The notes under the pieces: generated by a model
The model's database searches: none
The model's input: only the letters and a program-made list of their open reading frames with translations
What the model was told of the DNA's origin: nothing
In this document: positions 1 to 45,101 of the stretch, piece after piece
How positions within the stretch are numbered: position 1 is the stretch's first letter
Layout of the letters: each line of letters opens with the position of its first letter
Program-made: the position numbers and the translations under genes
Assembly (NCBI RefSeq): GCF_024500045.1
Contig: NZ_JTEO01000005.1
Location: forward strand, 62,001-126,000
DNA: 64,000 bases
Reading direction: 5' to 3'
Origin: Methanolobus chelungpuianus
GTDB lineage: Archaea; Halobacteriota; Methanosarcinia; Methanosarcinales; Methanosarcinaceae

Positions 1-1324
1 AAAGTCTTCGCCTGTCCCTCGGGAAGAGCACTACATCACGGATGTTCTCGACACCCAGCATGGTCATGACCAGCCTGTCGCATCCGATACCCCATCCGCC
101 GTGTGGTGGCATGCCGTACCTGAAAGCCCTGAGGTAGAACTCGAAGCCCTCGGGATTCAATCCCTGGGATTCTATGCGGCTCTTGAGCTGCTCCGGGTCA
201 TGGATACGCTGTGCACCCGAGGACAGTTCCATTGTCCTGTGCATCATGTCGAAAGATTTGGAAAGCTCGGGCTTGTCCTCGTAGGGTTTTGCATAGAAGG
301 GCTTTACCTCGGTAGGCCAGTCTATGATGAAATAGTGTGACTGGCCGGTCTCATTGAACACATGGTTGCCTATGGTGTGCTCCGAGAGCGTGCTCAGGTC
401 GTCACCCCATTTCAGGCTTTCCTCGCCGTAGGAGTTGACTATGGTGATAGCCTCGTCATAGCTTATCTTCATAAAAGGCGTCTGAGGGACGGCCAGCTCG
501 ACACCCAGGACCTCAAGCTGCCTTGAACAGTTGGCAATGACCTGATCATAAACGTAAGCCACCATGTTCTCCAGGATCTCCATCACATCGAAGTGATCGC
601 AGAAGCTGGCCTCAATATCGATGGACGTTGCCTCGTTGAGGTGCCTGCGGGTGTCGTGCTCCTCTGCCCTGAAGATGGGACCGATCTCGAACACCCTGTC
701 AAGTCCGCCGCTCATCAGCATCTGCTTGAAAAGCTGCGGGCTCTGGTTAAGGAATGCCTCCCTGTCAAAATAGGTTATCGGGAAAAGTGATGTACCGCCT
801 TCCGTTGCGGTTGCAACTACTTTAGGAGTAGAGGTTTCGACAAAACCGCTGGATGACAAAAAGCCCCTGACAGCCTTCAGAACCTCATGCCTGATAGTGA
901 ACACTGCTGTGGTCCTTTCCCTTCTCAGGTCCATGAACCTTGAGTCAAGGCGGGTATCCAGGTCGGCATCCACCTTGCCGGTGGTATCCATGGGAAGCGG
1001 AGACTCCGCTTCGTTAAGCAGGGTTATCTGCTCGGGTATTATCTCGTAGCCGTTCGGCGCCTTTGCTTCCGGTTTGACGACCCCTGTTACGGAAACGATG
1101 GACTCGCGTACAAGCCCCCTGGCCTTCTCCAGCAGCTCAGGGTCGGTTTTCTTCTTGACAAGTGTCACCTGGCCGCGTCCTTCACGGTCCCTGACCACAA
1201 CAAAACAAATGCCTCCGAGGTCGCGGACCTCATGCACCCAGCCTGCAACGGAGACTTTCTTGTCAGCCATCTCAGCCGGGTCGATCTTAGATGTATAATG
1301 CGTCCTGAGATCTTTTAATAACAT
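1..1324 (-). CDS. aspS: Aspartyl-tRNA synthetase, nondiscriminating archaeal type (3' end cut by window edge)
   Basis: Charges tRNA-Asp, and probably tRNA-Asn, with aspartate in the cytoplasm. The reading frame starts at the ATG complementary to 1322-1324, behind an AGGTGA ribosome-binding site, and is open to base 1. An N-terminal OB fold ([11 protein letters not shown]) is followed by the class II catalytic core with [25 protein letters not shown] and the C-terminal GIGCDRLVM and LFPRDRRRL motifs, so only the last few residues are missing. At the two positions known to decide tRNA discrimination in archaeal AspRS (Trp26 and Lys85 in Thermococcus), this protein has His31 and Pro90. That is the nondiscriminating pair, implying Asp-tRNA(Asn) is made and then amidated by GatCAB. 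gatD lies 130 bp upstream on the same strand. The family call is firm; nondiscrimination is inferred from the two residues. Confidence 0.95.
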
Positions 1325-40411: not shown

Positions 40412-41107
40412 TCAACGGCTGGAGATATACTCCAGCATTGACCTGAACACTTTTAAGCCGTCGGATGAACCCAGCACTTCCTCGGATGCACGCTCAGGGT
40501 GCGGCATCATTCCAAGCACATTCTTCCTTTTGCTGACTATGCCTGCGATATTCTCTCTGGAACCATTGGGGTTTGCCTCATCGGTGGCATTGCCATTCCT
40601 GTCAACATACCTGAAGACGACCTGGCCGTTCCTCTCCAGTGAAGCGAGGGTTGGCTCGTCTGCATAGTAGTTGCCTTCCATGTGGGCTATGGGGATGCTG
40701 AGGATATCTCCTTTCCTGAACATGGAGGTGAAGGGAGTATCGGTGGTCTCGACCCGCAGGTATGTGGGTTCGCACCTGAACTTCGGATAGTTGTTGGTGG
40801 TCAGCGCACCTTCGAGCAGGCCCGATTCGGTAAGCACCTGGAAGCCGTTGCAGATACCGATCACAGGCTTACCTGCATCAGCCTGTTTCTTCACGGAATT
40901 CATTATAGGTGTACGTGCAGCTATTGCGCCGGCCCGGAGATAGTCACCATAAGAGAAACCGCCAGGTATCACTATACCATCGAAGCGGTCAAGGTTCTCT
41001 TCCTTATACCAGACGAGTTCGGCATCAGCACCCAGAACATCCTTCAGGACGTGCAGGATATCAAGGTCACAGTTGCTTCCGCCAAACTGGACAACGGCAA
41101 TGCTCAT
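40412..41107 (-). CDS. purQ: Phosphoribosylformylglycinamidine synthase subunit PurQ
   Basis: Glutaminase subunit of FGAM synthase in purine synthesis. The 231-residue class I amidotransferase shows IPGGFSYGDYLRAGAIAA, the nucleophilic Cys in VIGICNGFQVLTESG, and the catalytic His-Glu in MMPHPERASEE. Its ATG overlaps the purS stop by 4 bases, so translation is coupled. purL is not in the window. Confidence 0.97.
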   Translation of the reverse strand: MSIAVVQFGGSNCDLDILHVLKDVLGADAELVWYKEENLDRFDGIVIPGGFSYGDYLRAGAIAARTPIMNSVKKQADAGKPVIGICNGFQVLTESGLLEGALTTNNYPKFRCEPTYLRVETTDTPFTSMFRKGDILSIPIAHMEGNYYADEPTLASLERNGQVVFRYVDRNGNATDEANPNGSRENIAGIVSKRKNVLGMMPHPERASEEVLGSSDGLKVFRSMLEYISSR

Positions 41108-41355
41108 TCTATTTCCCTCAGGGATATGGAATAATTATGGATGATCGGGTTCGCTATCAGCTTCTCGCACATCTCTTCCACGTTCTCCCTGGCGCTGTGT
41201 ATATCTGCTGCCTGCAGGACGATAGTGAATTTCTTTGCGGTCCTGACACTGTCGGTCTCATAACCAAGGTGCTCAAGCGCCCTTTTAACGGTCGTGCCTT
41301 CCGGATCGAGCATACCGGCCTTAAGTTCGATTATTACTTCAGCTTGATACTGCAT
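41104..41355 (-). CDS. purS: Phosphoribosylformylglycinamidine synthase subunit PurS
   Basis: Small 83-residue structural subunit that links PurQ and PurL. Typical motifs are MQYQAEVIIELKAGMLDPEG, ALEHLGYETDSVRTAKKF and MCEKLIANPIIHNYSI. It is first in the purS-purQ pair, with a 4-base overlap. Confidence 0.96.
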   Translation of the reverse strand: MQYQAEVIIELKAGMLDPEGTTVKRALEHLGYETDSVRTAKKFTIVLQAADIHSARENVEEMCEKLIANPIIHNYSISLREIE

Positions 41356-41457
41356 CTTCTATCCTCAGCTCTCTTTTGAATATGAATGATATGGATATGA
41401 GGCTTTAATACAGCACTTGATATTATAATCTTTGCCCCGGGAACATGTTCCTATGCC

Positions 41458-42045
41458 TTATGCAAGTGCCCTCTTTGCATGCAACAGACGCTGTATGACA
41501 GTGATGTGGGTAAGTACCACTATAATAATAATGGCAAGTCCAAGCATGCCTGTTAGGGCACCTGCGACAAGTACTATCAGCCTCTCCGGTCTCTCGGCTA
41601 TCCCGACATCCATCTCCCTTGCACCGGCAGCCTCCGCCCTGGAACGTGTGTAACTTACCAGGTAGGAGCCTATTATCGCAATTACCGTCCACAGCCACAT
41701 GGGAATGGAAAGGAAGTCCACCTGAACTATGCTGCCGGATATGAGGCCATAGATAATCCCTACGTATATAAGGGCGTCAGCGTACCTGTCACAGACGGAG
41801 TCAAGAACTGCCCCGAACGCGGTGCACAAACCATTAGCCCTGGCAACCGCACCATCGAAAACATCAAAGATGCCACTCAGAAGGATTGTAAAAGCCCCAA
41901 GGATAAGAAAACCCCTGGCAAACTCAATCGCAGCAATTACGCTGACTGCCAACCCTATAAGAGTTAAGGTGTTTGGTGAAAGAGGGATGTTCCTTGCCAG
42001 TGGCAGGAACCAGTTCCTTATATTATCCTTTAGTGCTCCCAACAT
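41458..42045 (-). CDS. CDP-alcohol phosphatidyltransferase, archaetidylinositol-phosphate-synthase-like
   Basis: An integral membrane lipid enzyme of 195 residues that transfers a CDP-activated lipid to an alcohol phosphate. The family motif D-G-x2-A-R-x8-G-x3-D-x3-D is visible as FDGAVARANGLCTAFGAVLD followed by SVCDRYAD, near residues 63-90, within about six membrane helices. In archaea this length and motif fit archaetidylinositol phosphate synthase; the exact acceptor is inferred. Confidence 0.88.
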   Translation of the reverse strand: MLGALKDNIRNWFLPLARNIPLSPNTLTLIGLAVSVIAAIEFARGFLILGAFTILLSGIFDVFDGAVARANGLCTAFGAVLDSVCDRYADALIYVGIIYGLISGSIVQVDFLSIPMWLWTVIAIIGSYLVSYTRSRAEAAGAREMDVGIAERPERLIVLVAGALTGMLGLAIIIIVVLTHITVIQRLLHAKRALA

Positions 42046-42285
42046 GTGCTTCCATCCTGATGTTTGATTTTCTATTCTATGTATTAGTATTTATTAATCT
42101 GCCTAAACCCGGTCCGGTTAAGAATTATAACTCATCATAATGATGGTGATTATACATTAAAACATAGATATAATTATATACTTGATTGTCAAACCAGCAA
42201 TTATACTGCAGAAACAGGACCCGTTCTTTCCTGATCTCTGGGGTCGTATCGGAATAACCATAAATCCGGGCAGAGGCAATAATAA

Positions 42286-42669
42286 ATGAAGACCGAACGC
42301 AAGATAATAGTATCTGAGAATGGAAAACTCGTTCTGAAGAAGATCACCCTTGCATGCAAAGATGCAAGCGGGAAAGATCTTTACCTGTTTGAACCGGACA
42401 AAAAGAAGGAAAAGACGGAAAGCCTTTACGAGCGCATGGAGAACAACTTCCTGAGAATAGGTCTCCTCAAGAAAGTTGACATGTCCACATTAAGTAATGA
42501 TGAGGTCAACAGGCTCATTTACAAGAAACATGAAAAGGAAGACAGGTTCCTCAAGGCAGGGGAGAAGCGTGGCTTCAATTTTGGCTCGGACATGGACCCG
42601 GATGATATCCTGAGATTCTATATATCCCTCACACCCGAGGAAAGGGTCGCCCTGAACTGCAAGCCGTAA
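42286..42669 (+). CDS. Small charged protein of unknown function
   Basis: A 127-residue, highly charged, Lys/Glu-rich soluble protein that I do not recognise. It begins with a beta-rich part (MKTERKIIVSENGKLVLKKI) and continues with predicted helices, including FLKAGEKRGFNFGSDMDPDD. It stands alone between a lipid enzyme and the asparagine synthetase fusion. Codon use looks like its neighbours, so I take it as a real gene. The 240 bp before it is AT-rich and promoter-like. Confidence 0.7.
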   Translation: MKTERKIIVSENGKLVLKKITLACKDASGKDLYLFEPDKKKEKTESLYERMENNFLRIGLLKKVDMSTLSNDEVNRLIYKKHEKEDRFLKAGEKRGFNFGSDMDPDDILRFYISLTPEERVALNCKP

Positions 42670-42884
42670 GCACGAACTGTGAAGATTACCATGGGGGTCC
42701 CTCAGCCCCCTGCCCTCACCCTGCTGTCTCATCCTGATATCTGTCCTTTATATCTGTCCTGTTTTCCCATTTCCCGCAGATCCACTCATAGCCCTGTGAT
42801 ATGTTTTCCGGGATGTACTATGAAAAGCTTTTATGATTAATACCATATATAGCCATCCAAAACCATACCAGTGAAGAAATCAAA

Positions 42885-45101
42885 ATGTGCGGGATTACAG
42901 GCTTTTTCAATATCGAGAACTCTCTGGAGCTGGCTCTGAGAGCCCTGGAGACCATGAGGAACAGGGGACTTGACTGTATCGGTATCTGTGGAGCCGGATG
43001 GCTGGAGCATGCCACTGATACGGAAAGCCTGAAATTTCAGCAAGGCTCCGAGCTGAACGTCCTTGGCCACCGCCTCCATTCCATGGTCAACTTCGTGCGC
43101 CAGCCTATAGCGTACAGAGGAAGGCTGGTTGCCAACTGCGAGCTGTACAACTGGAAGGAACTCGGGGAGAAGTACGGGATAGAAGCTGAGAACGATGCAG
43201 ACATGCTCATAAAACTGATAGAGCTTAAATGGCGTGAGCTGGAGAGGGCCAGGGATACAGGAAGCCCTGATCCCTCCGTGGATCACGATATCCCGGAAAC
43301 GGATGTGCTCAGGATGCTGGACGAGCTGCTTGCAGAAGTGACAGGGGTCTATGCTTTTGCTTACTGGCTGGGCGACAGGATCTACATCGCAAGGGACATA
43401 CTCGGAATCAAGCCTCTCTGGTACAGCACATCCGGAGGGTTTGCCTTCGCCTCCGAGAAAAAGGCGCTTGTGCCGACAGGCCGCACCGACATCAAGGAGC
43501 TTAACCCACGGGAGATTTTCGGCTACGACCTGCAGAACGATACAGTTACTACATTCAATAGGAGCTTTTTCTCCATCCAGCCGGAGCACACACAGCCGGT
43601 CGAGAATATCAAGGTAGACTTCCGGAGCCTTCTGGAGAATGCGGTGTCCGTACGCTTCCCGGATGAGAGGTTCGGCATATTATTCTCAGGCGGACTGGAC
43701 TCCACTGTGATAGCTTATCTCTGCAAGACGCTTGGAAAGAAGCCAGGAATTGATTTCACATGCTACACTGCCGGATTGAGTGAAGTCCAGCTTCCGCCTG
43801 ACGTGGAATATGCACAGAGGATGGCTCAGGAACTTGGCCTTGATCTTAAAGTAAAGAGGATCGGGCTGGAAGAAGTGGAAGAGTACCTCCGGCAGGTTGT
43901 CCCGCTTGTTGAAGATACTAATGTGCCAAAGGTGGGAGTAGCCCTGACCATGTACGCTGCGTGCGTAGCTGCCAGGGAGGACGGTATAAGGGTCATGTTC
44001 TCAGGCTCCGGGGCCGATGAGCTGCTGGCAGGCTATGACCGCCACAAGCGTTCCGCTGAAATAAACAGGGACTGCTATGCCGATATCCTGAAGATATACG
44101 AGAGGAACACCTACAGGGACGATGTGGTCTCCATGAACAATAATATCGAGCTGCGTGTGCCCTACCTGGACAAGCGCCTCGTTGACTATTGCCTTAAGAT
44201 CCCTGCTGGCTACAAAATGAGAGCAGACACTAACAAATGGATATTGCGTGAAACAGCCATGGACCTCGGCCTGCCTGAGGAACTGTCCCTGCGTAAGAAA
44301 CAGGCCGCCCAGTACGGCAGCAGGTTCGACAAGGCTATCGGCAAGCTGGCAAAGAGAGCAGGAGCCGGTACGAAGACCGAATACCTGAAGCAGTTCTATG
44401 ACCGGCACAATCTCAAACTGGGAGTCCTTTTCAGCTCAGGCAAGGACAGTAATTACGCAATGCACATAATGCAGGAGCAGAACTACTCCATCGAATGCCT
44501 CATCACTATCAAGAGCCAGAACCCGGACTCCTACATGTTCCACACACCCAACATCAGCCTGGCGAACCTGCAGGCGGAGGCAATGGGAATTCCGCTGATA
44601 GAGGAAACCACCAGGGGTGAAAAAGAGACAGAACTGGAGGACATGAAGAACGCCATCCTCCGGGCAAAAAAGGAGTTCGGGATAGAAGGAATTGTCACAG
44701 GCGCCCTCTATTCCAACTATCAACGCGAAAGAATAGAGAAGGTATGCGATGAGCTTGGTCTCAAGGTGTTCTCACCGCTCTGGCATATCGACCAGGAAAA
44801 GGAGATGCGCCAGCTTCTGTCAATTGGATTTGATTTTATTTTCAGCAGTGTTGCAGCCTACGGCCTTGATAAAAGTTGGGTAGGGCGCAGGATAGAAGAA
44901 AGGGACGTGGACCGGCTTGTGAGACTTAACCAGAAGATTGGTCTCAATGTAGCAGGCGAAGGCGGCGAGTTCGAGAGTTTCGTACTGGACGGACCCATGT
45001 ACAATAAAAGGATCGAGGTCAGGGCGATGGAAGTCATCGAGCTTGATGAGTACACTGCAAAAGTGAATATCACTGACGCTGTACTTGTCGATAAGGATTG
45101 A
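42885..45101 (+). CDS. Fusion: asparagine synthetase (glutamine-hydrolysing) + Dph6-type diphthine-ammonia ligase
   Basis: A 738-residue two-part enzyme. The first part is AsnB-like: Cys2 nucleophile (MCGITGFFN), a glutaminase domain to about 210, and the synthase PP-loop SGGLDS at 268-273 with FSGSGADELLAGY near 372-384. The second part from about 510 is an ATP_bind_4/Dph6 domain with its own PP-loop SSGKDS at 517-522, GIEGIVTGALYSNYQRERIE and the Dph6 signature GEGGEFESFVLDGP. Dph6 amidates diphthine on elongation factor 2. Tethering it to a glutaminase suggests that glutamine may supply the ammonia. The frame is continuous with no stop between the parts. Function of the AsnB half as true asparagine synthetase is not certain. 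Confidence 0.9.
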   Translation: MCGITGFFNIENSLELALRALETMRNRGLDCIGICGAGWLEHATDTESLKFQQGSELNVLGHRLHSMVNFVRQPIAYRGRLVANCELYNWKELGEKYGIEAENDADMLIKLIELKWRELERARDTGSPDPSVDHDIPETDVLRMLDELLAEVTGVYAFAYWLGDRIYIARDILGIKPLWYSTSGGFAFASEKKALVPTGRTDIKELNPREIFGYDLQNDTVTTFNRSFFSIQPEHTQPVENIKVDFRSLLENAVSVRFPDERFGILFSGGLDSTVIAYLCKTLGKKPGIDFTCYTAGLSEVQLPPDVEYAQRMAQELGLDLKVKRIGLEEVEEYLRQVVPLVEDTNVPKVGVALTMYAACVAAREDGIRVMFSGSGADELLAGYDRHKRSAEINRDCYADILKIYERNTYRDDVVSMNNNIELRVPYLDKRLVDYCLKIPAGYKMRADTNKWILRETAMDLGLPEELSLRKKQAAQYGSRFDKAIGKLAKRAGAGTKTEYLKQFYDRHNLKLGVLFSSGKDSNYAMHIMQEQNYSIECLITIKSQNPDSYMFHTPNISLANLQAEAMGIPLIEETTRGEKETELEDMKNAILRAKKEFGIEGIVTGALYSNYQRERIEKVCDELGLKVFSPLWHIDQEKEMRQLLSIGFDFIFSSVAAYGLDKSWVGRRIEERDVDRLVRLNQKIGLNVAGEGGEFESFVLDGPMYNKRIEVRAMEVIELDEYTAKVNITDAVLVDKD

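Follow-up and report, generated by a model that had tools for sequence, protein, structure and literature searches.

A candidate bifunctional amidoligase in Methanolobus chelungpuianus: an asparagine synthetase-like module fused to the diphthine-ammonia ligase Dph6

A 738-residue protein of Methanolobus chelungpuianus, in which a class-II glutaminase and an asparagine synthetase B (AsnB)-like PP-loop domain are fused to the diphthine-ammonia ligase Dph6, might be a bifunctional amidoligase whose Dph6 domain makes diphthamide and whose AsnB-like module amidates an acceptor other than aspartate. We give this reading a probability of about 0.48. The gene is located in a stretch of 64,000 nucleotides (contig NZ_JTEO01000005.1, positions 62,001 to 126,000; hereafter the window) of a 2.6 Mb genome, and the features discussed below are listed in Table 1.

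Table 1. Features of the fusion gene and of its surroundings in the window (position 1 is the first nucleotide of the window)
Feature	Position	Strand	Basis or remark
AspRS, aspartate--tRNA(Asn) ligase type	2..1279	-	TIGR00458, 610 bits (cut-off 368)
purQ, left neighbor of the fusion gene	40412..41107	-	purQ also adjoins the unfused AsnB-like gene of relatives, likewise divergent
AsnB-like/Dph6 fusion gene	42885..45101	+	738 aa; ORF reading, profile matches, relatives, AF2 model
Class-II (Ntn) glutamine amidotransferase fold, residues 1-200	42885..43484	+	Pfam, residue alignment, structure match
Cys2 codon	42888-42890	+	glutaminase nucleophile position
Leu64 codon	43074-43076	+	position of the Gln-contacting Arg of AsnB (E. 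coli 49, human 48)
AsnB-type PP-loop synthetase domain, residues 240-505	43602..44399	+	Pfam, residue alignment
SGGLDS PP-loop, residues 268-273	43686-43703	+	AsnB-type domain
Ser375 codon	44007-44009	+	position of catalytic Glu-364 of human ASNS
Lys472 codon	44298-44300	+	equivalent of E. coli Lys449, kept
Dph6 (diphthine-ammonia ligase) domain, residues 510-735	44412..45089	+	profile and structure matches
SSGKDS PP-loop, residues 517-522	44433-44450	+	Dph6 domain

The original prediction, that one frame joins a glutaminase/AsnB module to a Dph6 module, is borne out by Pfam, NCBIfam and structure matches, and the two PP-loops and the single Cys2 glutaminase fold that it described are present. 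The frame is open throughout, and its first start codon, the ATG at 42885, yields Met-Cys2 at the N terminus. A Pfam search identifies GATase_7, Asn_synthase (3.7e-51) and Diphthami_syn_2 (2.6e-71, residues 511-723); the NCBIfam model Dph6_archaeal (TIGR03679) is matched with 293.1 bits, above the cut-off of 197.3, and asn_synth_AEB (TIGR01536) with 262.7 bits, narrowly below the cut-off of 267.1. An apparent deletion of about 60 residues in the Asn_synthase match (profile positions 141 to 204) was ruled out because E. coli AsnB aligns with the protein without this deletion. The AF2 model, built with 66 sequences (mean pLDDT 93, pTM 0.87), consists of three folded domains; its AsnB half matches both domains of E. 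coli AsnB (1ct9) with a Z score of 40.1 (442 aligned residues, 2.2 A), and its Dph6 half matches Pyrococcus PF0828 (3rk1) with a Z score of 34.1 (220 aligned residues, 1.2 A). The fusion is not an assembly artifact because it is found in all 26 genomes of the same genus, in one of which (G010) it is broken across two contigs, and in other genera; it is also present in G029, G031 and G033 from the same family.

The glutaminase and synthetase folds show the same relative placement as in E. coli AsnB and human ASNS (6gq3), and the equivalents of E. coli Cys1, Asn74, Glu76, Asp98, the PP-loop and Lys449 are kept. Unlike in E. coli AsnB, Arg49 is replaced by Leu, Gly75 by Cys and Glu348 (364 in the human enzyme) by Ser, and Dph6 is added at the C terminus. 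The latter domain resembles the stand-alone archaeal Dph6 proteins (PF0828, and PH1257, 2d13) over the whole fold including the PP-loop, with Ser44/Tyr45 of PF0828 corresponding to Ser549/Tyr550, but the stand-alone proteins have no N-terminal AsnB module. A yeast enzyme of the Dph6 family is described as using ATP and ammonium (PMC5354562). Unfused archaeal short AsnB-like proteins, both with a glutaminase domain (L028, L035-L039, L045) and without it (L040, L042-L044, L046, L047), share the AsnB-type domain and a KKAxQYG-like motif with the fusion but, apart from being unfused and in some cases lacking the glutaminase domain, differ from it by a Gln in the Glu-364 position.

Neither the fusion nor the hypothesis that it supplies glutamine-derived ammonia to Dph6 is new, both having been published in 2012 for AsnB-DUF71 (Dph6) proteins of Methanohalophilus mahii, Methanosalsum zhilinae and Nanosalinarum (de Crecy-Lagard et al. 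2012, PMC3541065). The sections of that article that deal with the fusions present the identical order of class-II glutaminase, Asn_Synthase_B_C and DUF71/Dph6, propose the same ammonia supply, such that the glutaminase could feed both PP-loop domains, and include a reviewer's question as to which PP-loop takes the ammonia and what the role of the AsnB-like one is. The same sections name few archaea, and residue changes, a wide spread in DPANN archaea and secondary splits do not appear in them. The open-access literature on this fusion and on amidotransferases linked to archaeal Dph6 yielded that article alone, and no later experimental test was found there. The present analysis adds the spread as a single clade, purifying selection, the loss of two AsnB residues, the finding of no asparaginyl-tRNA synthetase (AsnRS) in the order, and the splits, the Cys2 losses and the occurrence of this Dph6 without AsnB.

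Residues were counted in 82 fusions or split forms, leaving out three incomplete sequences (L108, L111, L112). In the AsnB-type ATP site, Ser268, Gly270, Asp272, Ser273, Arg411, Asp412 and Lys472 are invariant (82/82), and Gly269 is replaced by Ala in two sequences. The human Glu-364 position is occupied by Leu (43), Ser (36) or, once each, Ala, Thr and Asn, and never by Glu. The position of the Gln-contacting Arg (human Arg-48) holds Leu in 76 of the 82 sequences, and Leu in six and Val in one of the seven unfused relatives that possess a glutaminase domain; Arg63 of the M. chelungpuianus protein was considered for the Gln-binding Arg and rejected, given that this column contains C, T, R or N and that the profile alignment places Leu64 in the relevant position. 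Cys2 is found in 79/82 sequences, and Asn84, Glu86 and Asp104 are retained here and in most of the others. In nine pairs compared by simple Nei-Gojobori counts, with synonymous sites near saturation in some, Dph6 has a Ka/Ks of 0.02-0.05, the AsnB-type domain one of 0.03-0.11 and the glutaminase domain one of 0.09-0.21. Purifying selection thus acts on each of the three domains; for the glutaminase fold this, together with the retention of Cys2, is consistent with an active N-terminal domain. As judged from these patterns, the AsnB-like module appears to be a working adenylating enzyme with altered glutamine and aspartate pockets, and it may not make asparagine because a glutamine-contacting and an aspartate-site residue are both lost.

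The same data bear on the possibility that the AsnB half has no activity of its own and is decaying as a passenger. The glutaminase domain is indeed the least conserved of the three, and it is degenerate in G033, G028 and the Methanophagales-type proteins, but Ka/Ks is well below 1 in every domain and the ATP-site residues are invariant even when distant DPANN sequences are included, so that this explanation is very unlikely. The conserved ATP-site residues could still be structural or regulatory, which would argue against an amidation by the AsnB-like module itself.

The Dph6 domain belongs to the only PF01902 gene of this genome, and the same holds for 21 of the 24 other genomes examined that carry the fusion; its Ser549, Tyr612, Gln613, Glu692, Glu695 and Glu697 are conserved in all aligned sequences that reach this domain. 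Dph2 is represented by L128 in M. chelungpuianus and is matched in 23 of the 24 other genomes, and aEF2 carries DAVHRGPAQIIP, with the motif DAVHRG and the target His. Given family membership, the sole copy and the presence of Dph2 and of the target His, the C-terminal domain is the probable diphthamide-forming ligase of the cell. In most Woesearchaeota-type genomes (L075, L081, L083, L089, L094 and others), Dph2 is matched in two pieces of about 67 and 225 residues; a split Dph1/2 has been reported previously, according to a citation in PMC6349945.

Whether the cell needs asparagine from the AsnB half can be assessed from its route to Asn-tRNA. A non-discriminating AspRS together with GatCAB makes Asn-tRNA by transamidation. 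No AsnRS scores above the cut-off in 60 relatives from the same order, each of which has at most one strong class-IIb match. In the present genome this match is the AspRS encoded in the window, which scores as an aspartate--tRNA(Asn) ligase (Table 1), and gatB is present in 58 of the 60. Most likely, then, Asn-tRNA is made here by transamidation, and neither free Asn nor an Asn synthetase is necessary for translation. Several complete genomes of the genus have no Asn_synthase-domain gene other than the fusion at E values up to 1e-15. Among the 24 other fusion-bearing genomes, nine encode AsnRS; the argument does not extend to these genomes, where free Asn could matter, and this counts against the bifunctional reading.

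A second alternative is that the AsnB half functions as an ordinary asparagine synthetase and shares the glutamine ammonia with the attached Dph6. The strong match to the AsnB fold is compatible with this possibility, as is the fact that the unfused relatives with a glutaminase domain exceed the asparagine-synthase cut-off; the fusion itself falls below the TIGR01536 cut-off. The replacement of Glu-364 in all fusions argues against it, since the E364A, E364Q and D367A mutants of human ASNS are inactive even with ammonia (PMC6748925). However, Gln is common in this position in AsnB-like proteins, being found in the unfused relatives and in two other AsnB genes of the genome, so that this position alone cannot exclude asparagine synthesis. 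Together with the loss of the Gln-contacting Arg and the lack of AsnRS in the order, these observations make an ordinary asparagine synthetase improbable. In three f2 genomes, an AsnB-like gene that lacks the glutaminase part (L043:4050-5057, L044:4343-5278 and L047:1752-2639) is followed immediately downstream by gat genes. These are interpreted as gatA, gatB and, except in L047, where it was not seen, gatC; gatB alone is model-confirmed, at the same coordinates. In L043 and L044, the AsnB-like gene and the gatC-like frame share 4 bases. This operon link suggests amide metabolism, in line with an ordinary AsnB, and also points to a separate job for the AsnB-like module.

A scan of named genomes yields at least 80 fusion loci. 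The matches listed include Methanolobus, Methanomethylovorans, Methanococcoides, Methanosalsum (L072), an ANME-3 record, Methanophagales, an Altiarchaeota record, a Diapherotrites record, and many Woesearchaeota and Nanoarchaeota. In quick trees made without bootstraps, the AsnB-type domains of the fusions from Methanosarcinaceae, Methanophagales and many DPANN archaea group in a single clade (SH-aLRT 99) with a Methanosarcinaceae clade inside it (100); the fused Dph6 domains are separate from Methanosarcina-type Dph6, and the stand-alone f4 Dph6 proteins L134-L136 fall inside the fused group (enclosing branch 97, own branch 90). The simplest reading of these trees would be one fusion event followed by transfer between archaeal groups, in either direction, and by later separations. 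In Methanosarcinaceae, the fusion gene lies next to purQ, and the two are arranged divergently, as are purQ and the unfused AsnB-like gene in the Methanosarcina-like L028 and L036. The purQ locus is thus shared (window positions 40412-45101, L028, L036 and L031) although the trees separate fused and unfused genes, and we cannot yet reconcile this shared position with transfer from DPANN. The neighbor genes in DPANN form recurrent clusters without a tie to diphthamide, with members that read, as judged from sequence, as a GTPase, a prefoldin-like protein and a nucleotidyltransferase-like protein.

The fusion is divided in G030 and G028, where two separate but overlapping genes, nested within the fused clades in the trees, encode the AsnB-like part and Dph6. 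Secondary fission is seen in two Methanosarcinaceae genera (L030:4366-6559 and L031:4042-6331, the latter with Gly in place of Cys2). The AsnB part of G028 starts with MGRIAG, which places Gly at Cys2; a decayed AsnB half with stops inside the match was considered for this genome and ruled out, as the locus consists of two overlapping open genes. The N terminus of the G033 protein reads MMQKLI, and its glutaminase domain is degenerate with both PP-loops intact, whereas L120 has Tyr at Cys2. In the Methanophagales-type fusions (L125, L126, L120), Asn84 is replaced by Asp and Asp104 by Ser, and the glutaminase domain contains a Cys-rich stretch. Both Methanophagales-type genomes checked (L125, L126) encode a second, stand-alone Dph6. 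Given that the glutaminase or its Cys2 is lost where Dph6 is kept, the fusion-type Dph6, a predicted enzyme, can apparently persist without an active fused glutaminase.

These losses weigh on the proposal, made in 2012 and again in the original prediction, that the glutaminase feeds ammonia to Dph6, with the AsnB PP-loop domain as a relay or scaffold. Apart from being in print (in the fusion sections of PMC3541065), this explanation accounts for the retention of Cys2 and, mostly, of Asn84, Glu86 and Asp104, and for the purifying selection on the glutaminase domain. GAT-QueC, in which a class-II glutaminase is joined to a PP-loop modification enzyme, is a precedent. However, the first two domains of the protein superpose on AsnB as a unit, so that any inherited ammonia path would lead to the AsnB-type site; Leu replaces the Gln-contacting Arg; Cys2 is lost in G033, G028 and L120; the fusion-type Dph6 occurs alone in f4; and the invariant ATP-site residues exceed what a scaffold needs. 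Channeling to Dph6 is therefore unsupported by these data, and we regard this explanation as doubtful. The other half of the original idea, one enzyme for two amidations, fares better, except that the second is probably not the conversion of aspartate to asparagine.

The bifunctional reading, in contrast, is compatible with the near-equal constraint on the AsnB-type and Dph6 domains despite the dispensability of Asn synthetase for translation, with the occurrence of the AsnB-like module on its own, with and without glutaminase, and with the retention of both parts as overlapping genes in the split relatives. In this bifunctional enzyme, the C-terminal domain, the only Dph6 of the cell, would adenylate the diphthine carboxylate on aEF2, which would then be amidated. 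The N-terminal two-thirds would be an archaeal short AsnB-like module that has kept its PP-loop ATP site and, mostly, the Cys2 domain, and that most likely performs its own ATP-dependent amidation of a non-aspartate acceptor. The fusion would tie the two activities together, and both may draw on the same ammonia, but nothing points to a channel dedicated to Dph6; ammonia reaching Dph6 would require leakage or a second path. The acceptor might be linked to translation, e.g., a tRNA or a second protein carboxylate, although we consider this rather unlikely. For 5-cyanomethyluridine as the acceptor, no supporting paper was found among the titles and abstracts retrieved.

The value of these observations lies in a sharper form of the 2012 question, namely, where the ammonia for the final step of diphthamide synthesis comes from and what the AsnB-like domain does. 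Owing to the altered residues, the distribution and the naturally split relatives, both the ammonia source and the function of the extra PP-loop become directly testable. If the acceptor does prove to be linked to translation, a single archaeal protein would amidate two different carboxylates of the translation apparatus.
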